Notes under the pieces: model-generated
What the model was told of the DNA's origin: nothing
What the model saw: only the letters and a program-made list of their open reading frames with translations
The model's database searches: none
Position numbers and translations under genes: made by a program
Assembly (NCBI GenBank): GCA_021159385.1
Contig: JAGGRW010000200.1
Span: forward strand, 1-39,736
Source: Methanosarcinales archaeon
GTDB lineage: Archaea; Halobacteriota; Methanosarcinia; Methanosarcinales; Methanogasteraceae
Direction: 5' to 3'
Length of the DNA: 39,736 bases
Shown: piece by piece, positions 15,243 through 24,264 of the stretch
Numbering within the stretch: the first letter of the stretch is position 1
Layout: every line of letters starts with the position of its first letter

Positions 15243-15852
15243 ATTCCACTTGTATATAGGTATATCATGGCTATGCCCCACAGCAGACAAAATACCGCAG
15301 GTATGCCAAGCACCGTGATAATTGCGTATTTCGTCGATAGATTGCGTGCATGCTTGATCCCAAATATCCATATATTCGCGCTCCACAACAAGAGAAGGAT
15401 TTGGATGATGGTTGCTGCCAGCGTCAATGGATGCATGGGTGGGGAGTGCCAGGCGAGAACTCGATGGTTGGGCGCACAGCCAGGGTTGCAGCAACTCCTA
15501 TGACTGTTGCAATGATCATTGGGATGAAACCATATCCAACGAACTCAAACACCCGTTTGAACGACCCCGTTCCGTTGAACAGCATCGAGATGGCATAGAA
15601 TACTCCGGCATACAGTAGCCATCCGATGAACGGCATAATAAGCCCCATGATGGCGCCGATTACTGCAAAGATGCTTGCAATCACCACCGCCTCTATCGGG
15701 AAAGAGGACACTATTGCACTCATGGTTATCACACTGGAGATAGCTCCAACGATGGCTGCAACGAGCACGATTACGAATGACGTCATCAGTTTTGTGTCTT
15801 TTGCGGATAGTTCGGCAAAGAACTGATCCGGGTTTGTCAGAACATTTGTCAT
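15239..15852 (-). pseudogene. Yip1-domain membrane protein split by a one-base frameshift
   Basis: ORF1 15424-15852 ends GTPHPCIH*; ORF2 15239-15436 continues MHPLTLAATIIQILLLLWSANIWIFGIKHARNLSTK, the expected Yip1 C-terminus. Confidence 0.7.
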
Positions 15853-15910: not shown

Positions 15911-16144
15911 TTACGATTCCTCGATGTCTGATTGATTCTGGTTCTGTGAATGCTCATAGTGGATGAACAGCTCCTCGATCGTCACGCCAAAGAAGTCCGC
16001 GAGTTTGAATGCAAGCTCAAGCGATGGGTTGTACCGCTGCTTCTCGATTGCATTGATGGTCTGGCGGGTGACCCCAAGTTTCTCTGCCAGATCCTCCTGT
16101 GTCAGGTCGTGCATCGCCCGAAAGACCTTGAGCCTGTTCTTCAT
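15911..16144 (-). CDS. XRE-family HTH transcriptional regulator
   Basis: MKNRLKVFRAMHDLTQEDLAEKLGVTRQTINAIEKQRYNPSLELAFKLADFFGVTIEELF. Confidence 0.92.
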   Translation of the reverse strand: MKNRLKVFRAMHDLTQEDLAEKLGVTRQTINAIEKQRYNPSLELAFKLADFFGVTIEELFIHYEHSQNQNQSDIEES

Positions 16145-16150
16145 CGGAAT

Positions 16151-16549
16151 CTACATCCTCCATCTATAGCATGCATAGAACCCAAGATAGCAGTACAGCA
16201 TCAAAATTGCCAGAGCCCCGAGCCAATCACCGGCTGCCTCTCCACTCATCGCCCCGATGAATGGATGAACAAAGCGGTTCAACATGTAGAGTGCCAGCAG
16301 CCCGATCACAAATACGCTGAATGCGGCACTCGCTGCCCTTCTGCTAATCTCCAGTGTCCGTTCGTCGTGTGTTATGACTCTGTACCTCTGTCTCGCGCTG
16401 ATCAGTATGATTATCCCGATGCCAACACCGATCGCTCCGATGATTGCATTTGATGTGAGCACTCCTGCGAGCACGCTGGCGACTGCGATGACGTGTGCTG
16501 CCACACGCCAGATCGTAAACATCTTCTCATTGTTTGTGTTATCAGACAT
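16151..16549 (-). CDS. DUF2178-like four-TM membrane protein
   Basis: Four TM helices with central DERTLEISRRAASAAFSVF; next to the XRE gene. Confidence 0.7.
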   Translation of the reverse strand: MSDNTNNEKMFTIWRVAAHVIAVASVLAGVLTSNAIIGAIGVGIGIIILISARQRYRVITHDERTLEISRRAASAAFSVFVIGLLALYMLNRFVHPFIGAMSGEAAGDWLGALAILMLYCYLGFYACYRWRM

Positions 16550-16571: not shown

Positions 16572-16591
16572 ATGTAAAGTATTAGTTACAT
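16572..16591. promoter_or_regulatory. Candidate operator ATGTAA-AGTATTAG-TTACAT
   Basis: 6-8-6 inverted repeat upstream of the 16549 start; same architecture at 18919 and 23972. Confidence 0.65.
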
Positions 16592-16742: not shown

Positions 16743-17915
16743 TCATCCCTTCAGATACCCCGGAATGTCCCTTATCCGGATCTTCTTCCCCGACATCAGA
16801 ATCGCGTTCCTGAATATTCTTGCCGAGAGTTTGATCACCACGAGGACCGAGATTGTGAGTATCAGGAGGCTTGCTGCGATCTCATAGACCGAAATACCTG
16901 TTAGCGTGATTCGCATCAGTGTTGTTGCGGGTGCCGTGTAGGGTATGTATGTCAGAACCCTTGCGACGGTCGAATCCGGTGCGGCGATGATTACACCGAG
17001 CAACATTATTGGCAAAATCCCCATCATCGTGAATACCATCGCGCCCTGCTGCGCGTCTTTCATGGTGCTTGCTGGCGCCGCAACACATGCCATCGATCCT
17101 GCGAAGAGGAGATAACCCAGGATAAAATATGGGATTGCAAGAATCATTATCTGGGAGATCTGAATCTCCTGAAATACTGCTGCTAACGATGTTAACGAGA
17201 TCATTAGCGTCCCCGAACAGATCCAGACACAGATTTGCAGGAGTCCGGCAGAGCCAAACCCAATAAGCTTCCCTGTGAGAAGTTCTTCAGGAGAAAGTGA
17301 GGAAAGCAGGATCTCGACCGTCTTATTCTCCTTTTCCGCAACGATTCCCTGCATCAGATACCCCGAGGTTGTCATTATCGAGAGCATCATCAGAATTGCG
17401 ACCGCATAAGGTATCAAAAACCGGACCTCCTGCTTTTCTTCAACCTCTCCCTCTTCGTTTAAGGTGATCCGCTCCATATCTGCCGGGCGTCTGATCCGGT
17501 CACCCAGTGGTTCGTCCACATCCAAGTCGCGCAGAAGGTTGTCGATTATGAACGCCTCAATCAAACCGGTCGGGGCTGAACTGAAGAATCCGCCTGTGCT
17601 ATACAGGACAACTCTTCCGGTTTCAAGATAATCCGGGGGGATTGTGATAAATGAGTTTATCTCGTCATTCAAGAGCGCATGCTCTGCATCCCCGATATCT
17701 TCAAACCGGGTGAAGATTCCATCCGGCTGCATGATCCCGGTCTCGTCCACAAAACCGATGTTTCGCGGGGAATCGGTGGCTATCTGCATGACGTAGCCTG
17801 ACGTGAACATCACCGGCAGGAGGATTACGAGCGGCAGGATCAGAGTCAGGATGAAGCCCTTCGTCTTAACAGTCGCCAGAAACTCGTGCTTTGCGACGAC
17901 GAGTGTTTTACGCAA
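16743..17915 (-). CDS. ABC-2 type permease (NatB-like Na+ efflux/export family)
   Basis: MRKTLVVAKHEFLATVKTKGFILTLILPLVILLPV, SGYLMQGIVAEKENKTVEILLSSLSPEELLTGKLIG. Confidence 0.9.
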   Translation of the reverse strand: MRKTLVVAKHEFLATVKTKGFILTLILPLVILLPVMFTSGYVMQIATDSPRNIGFVDETGIMQPDGIFTRFEDIGDAEHALLNDEINSFITIPPDYLETGRVVLYSTGGFFSSAPTGLIEAFIIDNLLRDLDVDEPLGDRIRRPADMERITLNEEGEVEEKQEVRFLIPYAVAILMMLSIMTTSGYLMQGIVAEKENKTVEILLSSLSPEELLTGKLIGFGSAGLLQICVWICSGTLMISLTSLAAVFQEIQISQIMILAIPYFILGYLLFAGSMACVAAPASTMKDAQQGAMVFTMMGILPIMLLGVIIAAPDSTVARVLTYIPYTAPATTLMRITLTGISVYEIAASLLILTISVLVVIKLSARIFRNAILMSGKKIRIRDIPGYLKG

Positions 17916-18891
17916 CGCTAACCACCTCGATAAAGATCTCGTTCAACGACGGCGATTTCATCTCAAATCTTCTCAGTTTTACGGATTCCATCAGATTCTT
18001 GAGAACATCCTGCGGGTCAGTTCCTACCCCTATGTCCAGTTCAGCGTATCTTCCATAATCTTCCATCCCTGTTACGCCGTCGATCGGTTTCAGGTCTCCC
18101 TCGTACTCCACAACCATGACCGGTGATTCCCTGTAATCGGCTTTTATCTGATCGAGTGTGCCGTAGAGCACTTTCTTGCCATGGTTGATCATCAGAATCC
18201 GGTCGCACATCCGCTCTGCCTGATCCATCTGGTGCGTGCTCAGTATGATCGTCTTCCCATCGCGCTTCAGATCGAGCATGATGTCCTTCACAATCTTCGT
18301 ATTGACCGGATCGAGTCCGGAGAAGGGCTCATCCAGAATCAGGATGTCCGGGTCATGAATGAACGCGGAAGCGAGCTGGATCTTCTGTTGCATCCCCTTG
18401 CTCAGGTCACTCACCCGCCTCTTTTTGTGATCGATGAGGTCGACCTTCTCCAGCCAGAAATCGATCCGGTCATCGGGTTTTTTGACGTTTTTGAGGTTTG
18501 CAAAGTACTTCAGGCATTCAAAAACCGTTATTTTCTGGTAAAGCCCCCTCTCCTCCGGAAGATAACCAATCCTCTCCTTAAAAGCCTCATCAAACGCTTT
18601 TCCAAACATTTTAACAGACCCATGATCGGATTTGATGATGTCAAGGATTATTCGTATCATCGTGGTCTTTCCCGCTCCGTTCGGTCCGAGTAATCCGAAT
18701 ATCTCCCCGCTTTCGATATGAAAACTGAGATCATCAAGGATCGTCTTCGTGCCGAAGCTCTTTGTCAGGTGTAGAACATCCAGAACCGGCTCATCTGTTT
18801 CATCCGTTTTTTCCACCTGCGCACCCGCGATTACAGCCGCTGCTGTTTGCCAGATCGTAAATAGTCTCTTGTTCTTTGTGTTATCAGACAT
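17908..18891 (-). CDS. ABC transporter ATP-binding protein (NatA-like) with extra DUF2178-derived N-terminus
   Basis: GLLGPNGAGKTTMIRIIL, LSKGMQQKIQLASAFIHDPDILILDEPFSGLDP; N-terminus MSDNTKNKRLFTIWQTAAAVIAG. Confidence 0.92.
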   Translation of the reverse strand: MSDNTKNKRLFTIWQTAAAVIAGAQVEKTDETDEPVLDVLHLTKSFGTKTILDDLSFHIESGEIFGLLGPNGAGKTTMIRIILDIIKSDHGSVKMFGKAFDEAFKERIGYLPEERGLYQKITVFECLKYFANLKNVKKPDDRIDFWLEKVDLIDHKKRRVSDLSKGMQQKIQLASAFIHDPDILILDEPFSGLDPVNTKIVKDIMLDLKRDGKTIILSTHQMDQAERMCDRILMINHGKKVLYGTLDQIKADYRESPVMVVEYEGDLKPIDGVTGMEDYGRYAELDIGVGTDPQDVLKNLMESVKLRRFEMKSPSLNEIFIEVVSVA

Positions 18892-18918
18892 TTTGTAATG
18901 TCTCCCTGTCGTTATAAA

Positions 18919-18938
18919 TTGTAATGTACGTTTTACAT
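18919..18938. promoter_or_regulatory. Candidate operator TTGTAA-TGTACGTT-TTACAT
   Basis: One mismatch to ATGTAA-N8-TTACAT; upstream of the ABC ATPase start at 18891. Confidence 0.55.
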
Positions 18939-18950
18939 GAAGTGGATGCG

Positions 18951-19148
18951 TCAATCATCATCGAAAATAAACAGCTCCTCAATCGTCGTCTCCAGAACCT
19001 TTGCGACATCGTGAGCCAGCTTGAGCGACGGATTGTACTTCCCCTTCTCGAGAAACACAATCGTCTCCCTTCTCACCCCGACCTTCTTTGCAAGCTCCTC
19101 CTGCGTCAGGTTGTATCGTGCCCGCAGTTCCTTGATTCTGGTATTCAC
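18951..19148 (-). CDS. XRE-family HTH transcriptional regulator
   Basis: GTG start; (M)[65 protein letters not shown] overlap with upstream gene. Confidence 0.92.
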
Positions 19149-19550
19149 CGGGCGTCGCCCCTCCGGTTGTAGTACCACCTGAGCATGATCCACGACCAGA
19201 TCCCGACAATGAAGAGATCGGGCACAACATCCTTAAAATTGAAGTTTAGTCCCCAGATACAACCTATTGCTTGAAGAAGAGCCATCATAAGAAGAAGGCT
19301 GCAGAACGCATGATAACCCGCCTTCTCCTCGACCTTCGCCGACCGTTCGTCCTGTATCAGGTACTCTTCTGGTGTTATTGCTGCAACGACGATTGCGACG
19401 ATTGCGACGATCCCCATAAGGAGCAGGGCAAAACCAATTCCGAAATATGAGTAATCTGGGGTAAAACCCAGCATGATGCCGCAGGCGATGATCAGGAGAA
19501 GAGCGCCGCTTGATAACCGCAAGATATCTCTATCTTTTCTGAATTTCATC
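19145..19550 (-). CDS. DUF2178-like membrane protein
   Basis: [14 protein letters not shown]...[19 protein letters not shown]...[12 protein letters not shown]. Confidence 0.8.
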
Positions 19551-19869
19551 AAACCACGTCCCCCTTCCTGCTGTAGTAAAAATGCGCAACCAGAAAACTC
19601 CCGATCATCACTCCGGAAACAGCGGCGATAACCAGACGGGCAGTCAACAGTTCCGGTCTGAATATGCACACAAACGCCAGAGTCCCAACAGTCACAAATG
19701 TAAGAACCCATGACCTGCTCAACGATTGCCTCGTAATCCTGTCGGTCCGCTCGTCAAACTCGATCTCGTCTACGTGCTTATACCCCCGCCGCAGCCTGCG
19801 GACCGTTTCATAGAGCACCACGATCACCACGAAATACAGATACCAGATCCGGAAATCGCCTTCCTGCAT
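19549..19869 (-). CDS. Divergent DUF2178-like membrane protein
   Basis: IEFDERTDRITRQSLSRSWVLTF...AHFYYSRKGDVV; same position and ending as the paralogues; ATGA overlap. Confidence 0.65.
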   Translation of the reverse strand: MQEGDFRIWYLYFVVIVVLYETVRRLRRGYKHVDEIEFDERTDRITRQSLSRSWVLTFVTVGTLAFVCIFRPELLTARLVIAAVSGVMIGSFLVAHFYYSRKGDVV

Positions 19870-19873
19870 ATTA

Positions 19874-20230
19874 TCACTTCTCCCAGATTCCCAACAGTCC
19901 GAGCAAAAATCCTATAAGCAGCCCTGCGATGGCGGCTAACGCTATGGCAAGTATGGGGTGGCTATACCAGAATCGGTTATATGCATTATCCACCACACTC
20001 AGTTGATAGAGTTTGTCCCGAACCGGCGGAACCGCCATGAAAAGTATGACTGCTATCAAAAAGAGTATGTGGGTCCAGCTTATCTGGTCCAATTCGACGT
20101 CTCCCTTTAGATAGAAGTAAATAAAACCCAGGATACCGCTGAATAGCAGAAATCCAAAGAGACCTATCGCTTTCAAAGCTGTTTTTACACTTGTTGATTG
20201 TTTACGTTTTTCAGGATCTATGGTTTTCAT
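19874..20230 (-). CDS. Uncharacterised small membrane protein
   Basis: 118-aa ORF with multiple hydrophobic helices, overlapping 20227-20631 by 4 bp within the array. Confidence 0.65.
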   Translation of the reverse strand: MKTIDPEKRKQSTSVKTALKAIGLFGFLLFSGILGFIYFYLKGDVELDQISWTHILFLIAVILFMAVPPVRDKLYQLSVVDNAYNRFWYSHPILAIALAAIAGLLIGFLLGLLGIWEK

Positions 20231-20631
20231 ACGATCTCACCTCTGCGGTTGTAGTACCATTTGAGTATAAGGAATGAATATGCTCCGACAAGCAGGGTTG
20301 TCCAATACATATCTTCAAGTTCAATGCCGAGCGACCAAATTTTGTCTGCCCAAAATAGAATTATTACAGATAACACGACCATCCAGCCAGCATTATATCC
20401 TGCTTTTTCAGTGATTCTTGTAATCCGTTCATCTGCTATAAGCTCTGTTTTTGGTTTTGTCGCGGTGTATACCGCCCTGGTAAATATAAATAGTCCGGCA
20501 AAAATTAAACCAAATCCTATGAAAAATGTGGTTTTAGAGGGTGCTTGAAACATCAACACCACACCCAATAAAACCACCACCAGACCGACTCTTAAAAGTC
20601 GTAAAATATCTTTATCTTTTCTGAATTTCAT
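20227..20631 (-). CDS. DUF2178-like membrane protein
   Basis: MKFRKDKDILRLLRVGL...LIADERITRITEKAGYNAGW...LKWYYNRRGEIV; close to the 21569 copy. Confidence 0.82.
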   Translation of the reverse strand: MKFRKDKDILRLLRVGLVVVLLGVVLMFQAPSKTTFFIGFGLIFAGLFIFTRAVYTATKPKTELIADERITRITEKAGYNAGWMVVLSVIILFWADKIWSLGIELEDMYWTTLLVGAYSFLILKWYYNRRGEIV

Positions 20632-21041
20632 ACGATCTCACCCCTCCGGTTGTAATACCATTTAAATATAAATCGTGAGTATATCCCTACTCCCATGATA
20701 AAGATGCATAGGTCCCTAAGTTCGAGGTTTACTGACCAGATTATATCCACCATGATCACGGTTAATACAAATGACGAAACCATCCCAAATGCAGAATTGC
20801 CCGCCTTTTCATTGATTCTCGTGACCCTTTCATCCGCTACAAGTTCTGTTTTTGGTTTTGATGTTGTCGCAGCATACAACGCTGAAAGCGATGTGATCAA
20901 CCCAATAATAATTAAATATAATCCAGCATAAAACGTAGCTCTATACCCTGTCGGGAATTGAATCGCAAGCATCCCCAATAGAATCAATCCAATACCAATG
21001 CCTAAAGCAAATAAAATCCTTTTATTTGTTCTTATTTTCAT
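20628..21041 (-). CDS. DUF2178-like membrane protein
   Basis: ELVADERVTRINEKAGNSAFGM...FKWYYNRRGEIV; ATGA overlap with next gene. Confidence 0.82.
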   Translation of the reverse strand: MKIRTNKRILFALGIGIGLILLGMLAIQFPTGYRATFYAGLYLIIIGLITSLSALYAATTSKPKTELVADERVTRINEKAGNSAFGMVSSFVLTVIMVDIIWSVNLELRDLCIFIMGVGIYSRFIFKWYYNRRGEIV

Positions 21042-21063
21042 TTACATCGCCCGCGTTCTCAAA

Positions 21064-21174
21064 TTAAAACACGAAGTCACCCAACGACTCCGCTACTCTT
21101 ATCAGCTCGTCCGTCTCAAGTTCCTCCTGAGTCAGGCTGTATCGCGCCCACAGTTCCTCGATTCTGGTTTTCAC
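21064..21174 (-). pseudogene. Truncated XRE HTH remnant fused to a lipoprotein-tail-like sequence
   Basis: GTG start: VKTRIEELWARYSLTQEELETDELIRVAESLGDFVF*; first part matches the 18951-19148 regulator, second part matches the tail of the 22822-23916 protein (EKDELVNVAESMT). Confidence 0.75.
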
Positions 21175-21572
21175 ACGATATCCTCCCTTCGATTATAATA
21201 CCATCTGAGTATAACAAACGAAAGCATTCCAACAAAGAAAATATCAGGTGAAACGCTCTTATAGCTAAGATCTAATCTCCAGAACATAGCTATTGATTGA
21301 ACAAGAGCCCCGGTCCCAAGGAGAATCCAGAACGCGTGATAACCTGCCTTTTCATTGACTCTCACAGACCTTTCGTCCTGTATCAGATCTTCTTTTCTTG
21401 CTGCTGTGATGATGGCTATGATGATCGCAATAATCCCCGCGATGATCAGGACCGAACCGATCCCGAAATAGGTAGGACCGGAAAGAAAACTCATTATGAG
21501 GATACCGGCGAGGATTAATAGAACAGCAATGCCTGAGAAACGCAGGATATCTTTATCTTTTCTTATTTTCAT
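21171..21572 (-). CDS. DUF2178-like membrane protein
   Basis: MKIRKDKDILRFSGIAVL...[20 protein letters not shown]...[12 protein letters not shown]. Confidence 0.82.
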   Translation of the reverse strand: MKIRKDKDILRFSGIAVLLILAGILIMSFLSGPTYFGIGSVLIIAGIIAIIIAIITAARKEDLIQDERSVRVNEKAGYHAFWILLGTGALVQSIAMFWRLDLSYKSVSPDIFFVGMLSFVILRWYYNRREDIV

Positions 21573-21976
21573 ACTACATCCCCTCTCCTGTTGTAGTACC
21601 ATCTGAATATAAACCAGGAATATATTCCTACTAACAGGGTTGTCCAGTACATATCCTCAAGTTCGAGGTCTAATGACCAGATTTTATCTGCCCAAAACAG
21701 AATCATTACAGCTAACAAAACCAGCCAGCCTGCAGTATAACCTGCTTTTTCATTGATTCTCGTAACCCTTTCATCTACTATAAGTTCTGTTTTTGGTTTT
21801 GTCGCGGCGTGTGACGTCATGACAAACATAAATAGCCCAGTAAAAGTTAAACCAAGTCCTATGAAAAATAGGGCTTTAGATTGTGCTTGAAATATCAACA
21901 TAACCACACCCAACAGAACCGACCCCAGACCAATTCCTGAAGTGAGTAAAATCTTTTTATCGGTTCTTATTTTCAT
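21569..21976 (-). CDS. DUF2178-like membrane protein
   Basis: ELIVDERVTRINEKAGYTAGWLV...[12 protein letters not shown]. Confidence 0.82.
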   Translation of the reverse strand: MKIRTDKKILLTSGIGLGSVLLGVVMLIFQAQSKALFFIGLGLTFTGLFMFVMTSHAATKPKTELIVDERVTRINEKAGYTAGWLVLLAVMILFWADKIWSLDLELEDMYWTTLLVGIYSWFIFRWYYNRRGDVV

Positions 21977-21977
21977 T

Positions 21978-22373
21978 TTATTTACCCTCTACCCTGTTGT
22001 AATACCATCCAAGTATAACAAACGAAAACACACCGATAAGAAGAGTCGCCGAGAGCGTACCTCTAATTTCAAGATTGTATAACCCTCTTTCATCTGCCAG
22101 TAACAGCAGTCCGCCAGACATTACAATTATCCAGAATGCGGCATATCCCGCCCTCTGATCATTTTTCTCTGTCCTTTCATCAGGCAGGACTTCTGTTTCC
22201 GGTCTTCGCATGGCGTACAATGCTGAACCAAGCATGATCAGTCCGACCCAGATAAGAGAACAGTGCTTAAAATCATAACTATGAAGACAATTGATTATGC
22301 CCCCCAAAACCATCACGGTTCCTGCCAGTAAGCCCCCTATAACGAATGCATCCTTGTGGTTTCTAATTTTCAC
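21978..22373 (-). CDS. DUF2178-like membrane protein
   Basis: GTG start (V)KIRNHKDAFVIGG...EVLPDERTEKNDQRAGYAAFW...LGWYYNRVEGK. Confidence 0.78.
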   Translation of the reverse strand: MKIRNHKDAFVIGGLLAGTVMVLGGIINCLHSYDFKHCSLIWVGLIMLGSALYAMRRPETEVLPDERTEKNDQRAGYAAFWIIVMSGGLLLLADERGLYNLEIRGTLSATLLIGVFSFVILGWYYNRVEGK

Positions 22374-22780
22374 TGAATCACATCCCCTTTTCTGTTGTAG
22401 TACCACCTGAGTATGTTCCGCGAAATTATCCCGACAAACATCGCCGCATAGTACATATCCGCGATTTCGATTCCAATCGACCATGCCCGATCCGACCCGA
22501 ATAGAATAGTCATGGATATCAGAACCATCCAGTATGCGGAGTTGCCCGCCCTCTCATTGATTCTTGCAATCCGTTCGTCCGCTACGAGTTCTGTTTCCGG
22601 TTTCGTTGTGGCGTGTAACAATATAGTAAATATAAGCATCCCGGCAACGATCAAACCCATACTAAAGAAGAACTGGGCTCTGGAAGGCGTCCAAAAAGCC
22701 AGTATAGCTACACCCACCGCGATCACGCTTATACTTACCCCCATAGACAGTTTAATCTTCGTATCTGTTCTTATATTCAT
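22370..22780 (-). CDS. DUF2178-like membrane protein
   Basis: ELVADERIARINERAGNSAYWM...LRWYYNRKGDVIQ. Confidence 0.82.
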   Translation of the reverse strand: MNIRTDTKIKLSMGVSISVIAVGVAILAFWTPSRAQFFFSMGLIVAGMLIFTILLHATTKPETELVADERIARINERAGNSAYWMVLISMTILFGSDRAWSIGIEIADMYYAAMFVGIISRNILRWYYNRKGDVIQ

Positions 22781-22821: not shown

Positions 22822-23916
22822 TCATGTCATCGACTCCGCTACGTTCACCAGCTCGTCCTTCTCAAGCCCACCAGACAGCGAATAATCGATGCCATCTGCG
22901 CTCCACTGAAGCGTGTTCATACCGAACATGGACGTAAACTCTCCGTCAGTGCCATTGATGCTCACAATCTCGGGTTCGCCCATTCGCGGTCCGGACTGTT
23001 CCGTATCGTCACTGATCCACTCTGAGAGATACAATCGCTCATCTCCGTTCGTATATTTCAGCGATACGACCTCCCGCTCGCCACCAGTCACCATTGCATG
23101 GTCGTCTAATTCGTATCCTTCCGGCAGATATGACGGGGTTCTCAGATCGAATGTGAGGTTCGCCCTCGCTTCCTCAAGCGTCATCTTCTCAGGCATCCTA
23201 TCCTCAAACGATTCCTCCACGACCTCAGCACCAACCGGTGCCTCGAATATGAACTCGCTGTCAGGGATGCCGGTGTTAAACGTTATATCCCGGTATTCAA
23301 CCTTCACCATTGGATTGCCGTCCGCATCGTACATCTCCGTCCCGAGCAGCATCCAGTTTTCACGATCGACCCATACGCGTGTCTTAGCGATGAATTTACG
23401 CTTAGATTCATCCTTGGGCGTTGCCTCGATCACATAAGTGCTCCGCCCGCCGACATTCTCGGTGCCCTTGTATGATATGTCGTTCTCATCCATGAGATCC
23501 TTTACGATGCTGGTGTAATCCATCTCAAACGGTTCATCCCCCATATCAGGGAGTTCCGTCTTCGTCACCTGATTCTTTGCAGGGTCGTACATCCACATCG
23601 TGCTGCCATTCCTGATCATCACCGTGCCTGCAAATTCGGCTGGCTCGATGAATTCGGAGCGGGTTTTATCCGGCATTTTGGTCATGATCGTTGCATGCGT
23701 GGTTTCGGTTTCCCCGCCATACGACGATGTCATGACCATCGTGGCTGAAAAGTCCTTTATGCTCTCCTGCTTCGCTTCCATCCTGGCAGCGATCTGGTCT
23801 GCGGACATTTCAGACATCTGATCGACGCATCCTGTGAACAGGACGGCTGCAAGGACGATTGCGACTGCTGCGATCTGTTTCGTCCGTCTCTCCATTTGTT
23901 TCGTCTGTTTCTTCAC
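22822..23916 (-). CDS. LolA-like lipoprotein with DUF4367-like C-terminal domain
   Basis: Lipobox VLFTGC; SMWMYDPAKNQVTKTELP, KTRVWVDRENWMLLGTEMYDADG; C-terminal PSYLPEGYELDD domain. Confidence 0.82.
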   Translation of the reverse strand: MKKQTKQMERRTKQIAAVAIVLAAVLFTGCVDQMSEMSADQIAARMEAKQESIKDFSATMVMTSSYGGETETTHATIMTKMPDKTRSEFIEPAEFAGTVMIRNGSTMWMYDPAKNQVTKTELPDMGDEPFEMDYTSIVKDLMDENDISYKGTENVGGRSTYVIEATPKDESKRKFIAKTRVWVDRENWMLLGTEMYDADGNPMVKVEYRDITFNTGIPDSEFIFEAPVGAEVVEESFEDRMPEKMTLEEARANLTFDLRTPSYLPEGYELDDHAMVTGGEREVVSLKYTNGDERLYLSEWISDDTEQSGPRMGEPEIVSINGTDGEFTSMFGMNTLQWSADGIDYSLSGGLEKDELVNVAESMT

Positions 23917-23971
23917 CTGTTTTCACCTTCTTATGCTGTCTCTGTTGTTGAAGTTACTTATTTCTAACTCC

Positions 23972-23991
23972 ATGTTAGATATAGTTAACAT
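23972..23991. promoter_or_regulatory. Candidate operator ATGTTA-GATATAGT-TAACAT
   Basis: 6-8-6 perfect inverted repeat upstream of the lipoprotein start at 23916. Confidence 0.6.
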
Positions 23992-24264
23992 CAAGGTATA
24001 AAAGGGTTTCGGGGTCGGGTGCAAGACCCGGTACGTAAAAGTTTCAAAAACAGTGTCGGTAGCAATAGTTCCGAAAGCCGCTTTTCGGATCGACAGTGAT
24101 GCGGAAGCGTTGCGCAGCAGCGCCGGAGGCATAAAAATTGCCAGAAACAGACCCATTTCCCGGGAAACCCAATAATTTTACGCCGCGGAGGAGTCCCCCG
24201 CAACCCCCACAAAAGACTTAATACCAAATCACAAGAATCAACATCACAAGAGGTGCATAACAAT

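Follow-up and report, generated by a model that had tools for sequence, protein, structure and literature searches.

Arrays of DUF2178 membrane proteins paired with a predicted XRE autorepressor and a conserved double operator in archaea

Contig JAGGRW010000200.1 (39,736 nucleotides, analysed at its full length and called the window here) is part of a 2.05-Mb, 226-contig archaeal metagenome-assembled genome (MAG) that is ANME-2c-like, its closest named relatives being ANME-2c (anaerobic methanotrophic archaea) and other Methanosarcinales MAGs. It carries a head-to-tail array of genes for small membrane proteins of the family DUF2178 (PF09946), for which no paper mentioning the family was found in the searchable literature. 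The array belongs to an operon that begins behind a double operator and ends in the gene of a helix-turn-helix (HTH) protein of the XRE type, HTH1. The organisation of this operon and its predicted autoregulation are well supported by comparison between genomes, and HTH1 very probably binds the double operator. With roughly even confidence, we propose that HTH1 shuts the promoter, that diversified DUF2178 receptors, once engaged, sequester HTH1, and that the products protect the envelope. The unit of operator, array and repressor, which recurs in very different archaea, resembles a self-regulated module for envelope sensing or immunity of a kind not yet described.

Operon layout and operators

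All features described here lie on the minus strand. Directly behind a TATA box-like sequence (CTTTTATAC, 23996–24004) and before the first gene lies the 37-bp double operator GTTA-N8-TAAC-N5-GTTA-N8-TAAC (23953–23989), the predicted HTH1 site, and the same arrangement is seen in relatives. The first gene (22822–23916) encodes a predicted lipoprotein with LolA_like (Pfam, 2.6e-20) and DUF4367 (3.5e-13) domains and weak PDB matches to the LolA family. It is followed by the DUF2178 copies c1 (22370–22780; Pfam 3e-7), c2 (21978–22373; 0.0019, and placed by the tree), c3 (21569–21976; 2.2e-5), c4 (21171–21572; 4.2e-8), c5 (20628–21041; 1.1e-4, and placed by the tree) and c6 (20227–20631; 1e-4), a divergent short DUF2178-like copy of 106 aa, c7 (19549–19869), which has the DER loop, its own tree clade and orthologues in relatives, and c8 (19145–19549; 1.5e-6). 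HTH1 (18951–19148), a 65-aa protein of the RRETI recognition type, is last; its HTH_3 domain (4.1e-16) scores 59.2 bits, against a cut-off of 23. A preliminary description of this DNA had listed seven clear copies and a divergent one, a separate copy at 16151–16549 (c9) and an unrelated interspersed small membrane protein, all with coordinates that hold. The last of these, x (19874–20230), belongs to no significant family and is present in one related locus (L045) and partly in two others (L047, L042). That description did not include HTH1, a second HTH gene after c9 (HTH2), an HTH remnant between c4 and c5, the leading lipoprotein gene or the operators. Its statement that most junctions are 4-bp ATGA/GTGA overlaps holds for c1/c2, c3/c4, c4/HTH remnant, c5/c6, c6/x and c8/HTH1 (GTGA), but not for c2/c3, c4/c5, x/c7 and c7/c8.

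The exact double operator has one copy in the whole genome of this archaeon. It was present in 27 of the 119 loci examined, one each, some of these loci being duplicates of one contig, and it recurs at DUF2178 arrays of ANME-1, Methanoperedens, Nanohaloarchaea and Aenigmatarchaeota, while some arrays have a single GTTA-N8-TAAC only. When up to one mismatch was allowed in a whole-genome search of 13 genomes (Nanohaloarchaea and other DPANN-like MAGs, Aenigmatarchaeota, ANME-1 and others), most genomes had it once, one Methanoperedens had it twice and three lacked it, and the backward sequence gave no matches in the same 13 genomes. Single sites in the genome of this archaeon are at chance level (12 matches of GTTA-N8-TAAC vs 20 for the backward control, and 11 of GTAA-N8-TTAC vs 15); therefore weight can be given only to the double site and to sites conserved between relatives, and a regulon elsewhere in the genome was rejected.

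The half-sites covary with the repressor subtype. After removal of duplicate upstream regions, GTTA-N8-TAAC was present in 32 of 43 RRETI-type operons and GTAA-N8-TTAC in none, while TRQTI-type operons had the latter in 11 of 17 and the former in none; altered spacings (N7, N9 and N10 of the GTTA pattern, N7 and N9 of the GTAA pattern) gave 0. The contrast of 32:0 vs 0:11 has a Fisher probability of 1.7e-10, the operons not being independent. This covariation and the position of the double operator just behind the TATA box strongly suggest that HTH1 binds there and keeps the operon low.

Similar arrays were found in relatives and in very different archaea, with 1–10 DUF2178 copies and the HTH gene last almost without exception (47 RRET-type and 18 TRQT-type operons counted). 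The largest array, of ten copies, is in Methanoperedens (L101:1414-5715), and the end of an ANME-type array is on a 1.6-kb contig filed under Deltaproteobacteria (JAUVJO010000439.1), which is probably misbinned. The lipoprotein (LolA/DUF4367) gene is near only 13 of the 47 RRET operons. Because single-copy units are common, the array is not the constant feature; what stays constant across archaea is one XRE repressor paired with the operator belonging to it. A toxin-antitoxin-like or selfish module, with the HTH protein as antitoxin and the membrane proteins as toxins, would agree with the patchy distribution, which includes DPANN, and with the resemblance of the small XRE proteins to HipB/Y4mF antitoxins (under curated cut-offs). 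We consider it very unlikely, given that the HTH gene is last rather than first, that as many as ten diverse 'toxins' would face one antitoxin, and that orthologous slots are retained within a family; among the Pfam/NCBIfam matches, no toxin family beside the HTH gene was over its cut-off.

Conservation pattern of the DUF2178 proteins

A search with the DUF2178 hidden Markov model confirmed the family for most copies, as had been suggested from the sequence: c1, c3, c4, c8 and c9 pass the curated cut-off of 22.8 bits, c6 (22.7 bits) and c5 (22.6 bits) are within 0.2 bits below it, c2 scores 18.7 bits and c7 has no Pfam DUF2178 match. The genome-wide search gave eight matches, all inside the window. 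Of 397 genomes sampled from the phylum of the window, 181 carry DUF2178, mostly with one or two copies each, whereas the window has eight plus one. The four transmembrane helices ascribed to each copy correspond to residues 7–29, 33–58, 68–99 and 105–130 of an AlphaFold2 (AF2) model of c8 (114-row alignment; pLDDT 79, pTM 0.51), and the positive charges at the N-terminus, central loop and C-terminus indicate an N-in/C-in topology by the positive-inside rule. The conserved cytoplasmic face is formed by the N-terminus, the DER...EKAG loop (E68 invariant, D67 and R69 nearly so) and the C-terminal WYYNRRG. Mean conservation is 2.17 bits in inner segments, 1.65 in helices and 0.98 in outer loops, and differences between slots are most frequent in outer loops and helices and least in inner segments. 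An EKAG-type loop is found in the copy next to the HTH gene in 37 of 47 RRET operons, and in nearly all single-copy RRET operons.

This pattern is most readily understood if the inner face of DUF2178 binds HTH1 and the outer surfaces of the different copies, as parallel receptors, meet different membrane-active compounds (peptides or lipids). An engaged receptor would hold HTH1 at the membrane, the promoter would open, and the additional DUF2178 proteins and lipoprotein would protect the envelope; the HTH1-adjacent copy may be the primary partner, with the remaining copies as accessory inputs or protectors. With hardly more than one strong operator per genome, the response should consist of the operon products themselves. 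The preliminary description had proposed a diversified set of sensor/immunity-type proteins, which fits in with conservation on the inner face and variation in the outer loops, although it was argued from coupling alone and missed the pairing of repressor and operator.

Alternatively, the array might serve immunity only, each copy neutralising another membrane-active peptide and HTH1 being an ordinary autorepressor that does not contact the membrane proteins. The operator that usually occurs once per genome, which makes the products the output, and the variable outer loops would suit such an array, as would the exporter and Yip1/YknW-like genes near part of the loci, given that YknWXYZ protects against SDP (PMC4887032). 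It would leave the strongly conserved inner face and the special HTH-adjacent copy unexplained, and we regard it as rather unlikely.

Several observations weigh against sequestration of HTH1 by the DUF2178 proteins in an envelope-protecting unit. Kinship among the operons lowers the independence of the covariation count, and 11 of the 43 RRET operons are without an exact operator. Of the 29 RRET operons that could be tested for a neighbouring ABC exporter, only 11 have one. In addition, the sequestering membrane protein SdpI (PF13630), compared below, gave an hhalign probability of 0.5% against DUF2178, with an SdpI profile that is shallow (four close sequences). Many accessory DUF2178 copies also have diverged inner loops; therefore, not every copy need bind HTH1.

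Relationships to other proteins are distant. The membrane families DUF6773, DUF6442, DUF3796 and DUF3784 share weak profile matches and the DER region with DUF2178 (DUF6773 in 50 of 114 members, best 5e-8), but the window copies score under the curated cut-offs of those families, and a literature search on DUF3796/DUF6773-type families gave no functional paper. No match under E = 1 was obtained in a PDB fold search, nothing significant in a PDB sequence search with the DUF2178 profile, and no match to c8 by tblastn against 50,697 phage records. In two loci (L069:1782-2792 and L090:4458-5417), a c2-type DUF2178 is fused via one extra hydrophobic segment to the ectodomain of an ABC-2 permease, and detached remains of this fusion are present in L084 and L096; its AF2 model is of low confidence (pLDDT 65) and was not used as evidence.

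Duplication history and the second module

The recurrence of subtypes, from which a block duplication had been suggested, is seen in c3 and c6 (69% identical) and in c4 and c8 (52% identical, sharing a slot clade in the tree), and a chimeric HTH'/LolA' junction marks the duplication. In the remnant between c4 and c5, the start of the HTH gene (about 20 codons) continues into the tail of the lipoprotein gene, as would be expected of the scar left by tandem duplication of a block running from lipoprotein tail through DUF2178 copies to HTH start. This dead chimera (21063–21174; repeats D3 and D14) is still an open, read-through frame of 36 codons in the window. Its c4/c5 junction is also found in L045 and L042, that is, in three assemblies counting the window, and since two separately assembled relatives have the same scar, the duplication is an old one and faulty assembly does not account for the array. 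An assembly artefact was rejected on the grounds of a like array, including the c4/c5 junction, in the separately assembled MAGs UBA203 and ANME-2c-GOS. In a tree built on few columns, with uncertain deep forks, the copies fall into slot-specific clades common to several ANME-2c-like genomes, and a recent expansion was rejected since these subtypes are old and common to several species.

Ratios of nonsynonymous to synonymous substitution (dN/dS) against L045 were 0.17–0.41 for c2, c4, c5, c7, c8 and c9 and 0.87 for c3, while c1 and c6 had no L045 orthologue in this comparison; HTH1 and its L045 counterpart are identical, with a dS of 0.24. The low ratios indicate that most copies are kept by selection, and selective retention of c3 is unproven. 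That the copies are drifting tandem duplicates with no present function, as the dead remnant and the ratio of c3 might suggest, is hardly credible in view of the purifying selection on the other tested copies, all well under 1, the slot orthologues across genomes and the lack of stop codons. Slots kept across species with translational coupling, together with purifying selection on most copies, could also be expected if the paralogues were subunits of one hetero-oligomeric membrane complex (a channel or transporter), with HTH1 only setting its amount by an intracellular signal. Copy number, however, varies from 1 to 10 with single-copy units common, and therefore there is no fixed stoichiometry, and conservation peaks in the cytoplasmic segments, not the helices. 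Hetero-oligomers, which the preliminary description had put forward, are not needed to explain the array, and we consider such a complex rather unlikely.

The second module consists of c9 (16151–16549; Pfam 6.2e-10), its partner HTH2 (15911–16144), an XRE protein of the TRQTI type (HTH_3 1.1e-18, 67.5 bits), and a predicted operator, GTAA-N8-TTAC, before c9 (16574–16589) that is conserved in relatives. It is adjoined by a Yip1/YknW-like membrane protein after HTH2 (15424–15852; Yip1 5e-19) and by an ABC-2 exporter, consisting of the permease abcB (16743–17915; ABC2_membrane_3 3.6e-40) and the ATPase abcA (17908–18891; family match, with a DrrA-like C-terminus). A second GTAA-N8-TTAC in the window, a predicted HTH2-type operator by motif match, lies before abcA (18921–18936). 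In abcA taken with its leader (17908–18954), the leader and about the first 22 codons are copied from c9 (repeat D8), including this site, a promoter capture by duplication of which an equivalent is found in L048. ABC exporters and Yip1/YknW-like genes beside part of the units agree with a role in envelope defence without proving it.

Significance and comparison with known systems

These results place a domain of unknown function in a regulatory system that can be tested, with a named repressor, a 37-bp operator and partner membrane proteins, and the operator may be used for locating such units in other genomes. If the receptors do converge on one repressor, very few components would here make up a sensory device with multiple inputs. 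A broader reading, in which we place distinctly less than even confidence, is that of an undescribed archaeal signalling architecture in ANME, Methanoperedens and DPANN, in which up to ten diversified four-helix receptors act on one XRE repressor controlling only its own operon and serve in sensing and resisting membrane-active compounds exchanged between partners. The system also has a bearing on the ways in which ANME and DPANN archaea withstand attacks of their neighbours on the envelope.

The closest known logic is that of SdpI/SdpR in Bacillus subtilis, where a polytopic membrane protein is encoded with its own autorepressor, which is sequestered at the membrane, so that the immunity protein doubles as receptor (PMC1626106). 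The proposed DUF2178 module would share this logic, sequestration included, but with up to ten receptors instead of one. SdpR is an ArsR-type HTH protein, whereas HTH1 is of the XRE type, and we know of no conserved double operator for SdpI/SdpR. As homology to SdpI was not found, and the SdpI family has no match in the genome of this archaeon, the DUF2178 module may work like SdpI/SdpR without being one. YknWXYZ combines a Yip1-family protein, YknW, with an ABC transporter in protection against a membrane-active peptide, SDP (PMC4887032). Both kinds of protein, Yip1 and ABC exporter, are also encoded in the window, but abcAB is a DrrA-like ABC-2 exporter, beside which no membrane fusion protein was identified, while YknYZ is MacB-like. 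The LolA/MucB_RseB-like domain of the operon's first gene recalls RseB/LolA-type lipid-binding proteins, from which the window protein differs as a predicted lipoprotein with an extra DUF4367. A membrane receptor joined to an autorepressor is thus of a known kind, whereas a single repressor shared by many diversified receptors, with a conserved double operator, is new, as far as the searchable literature shows.

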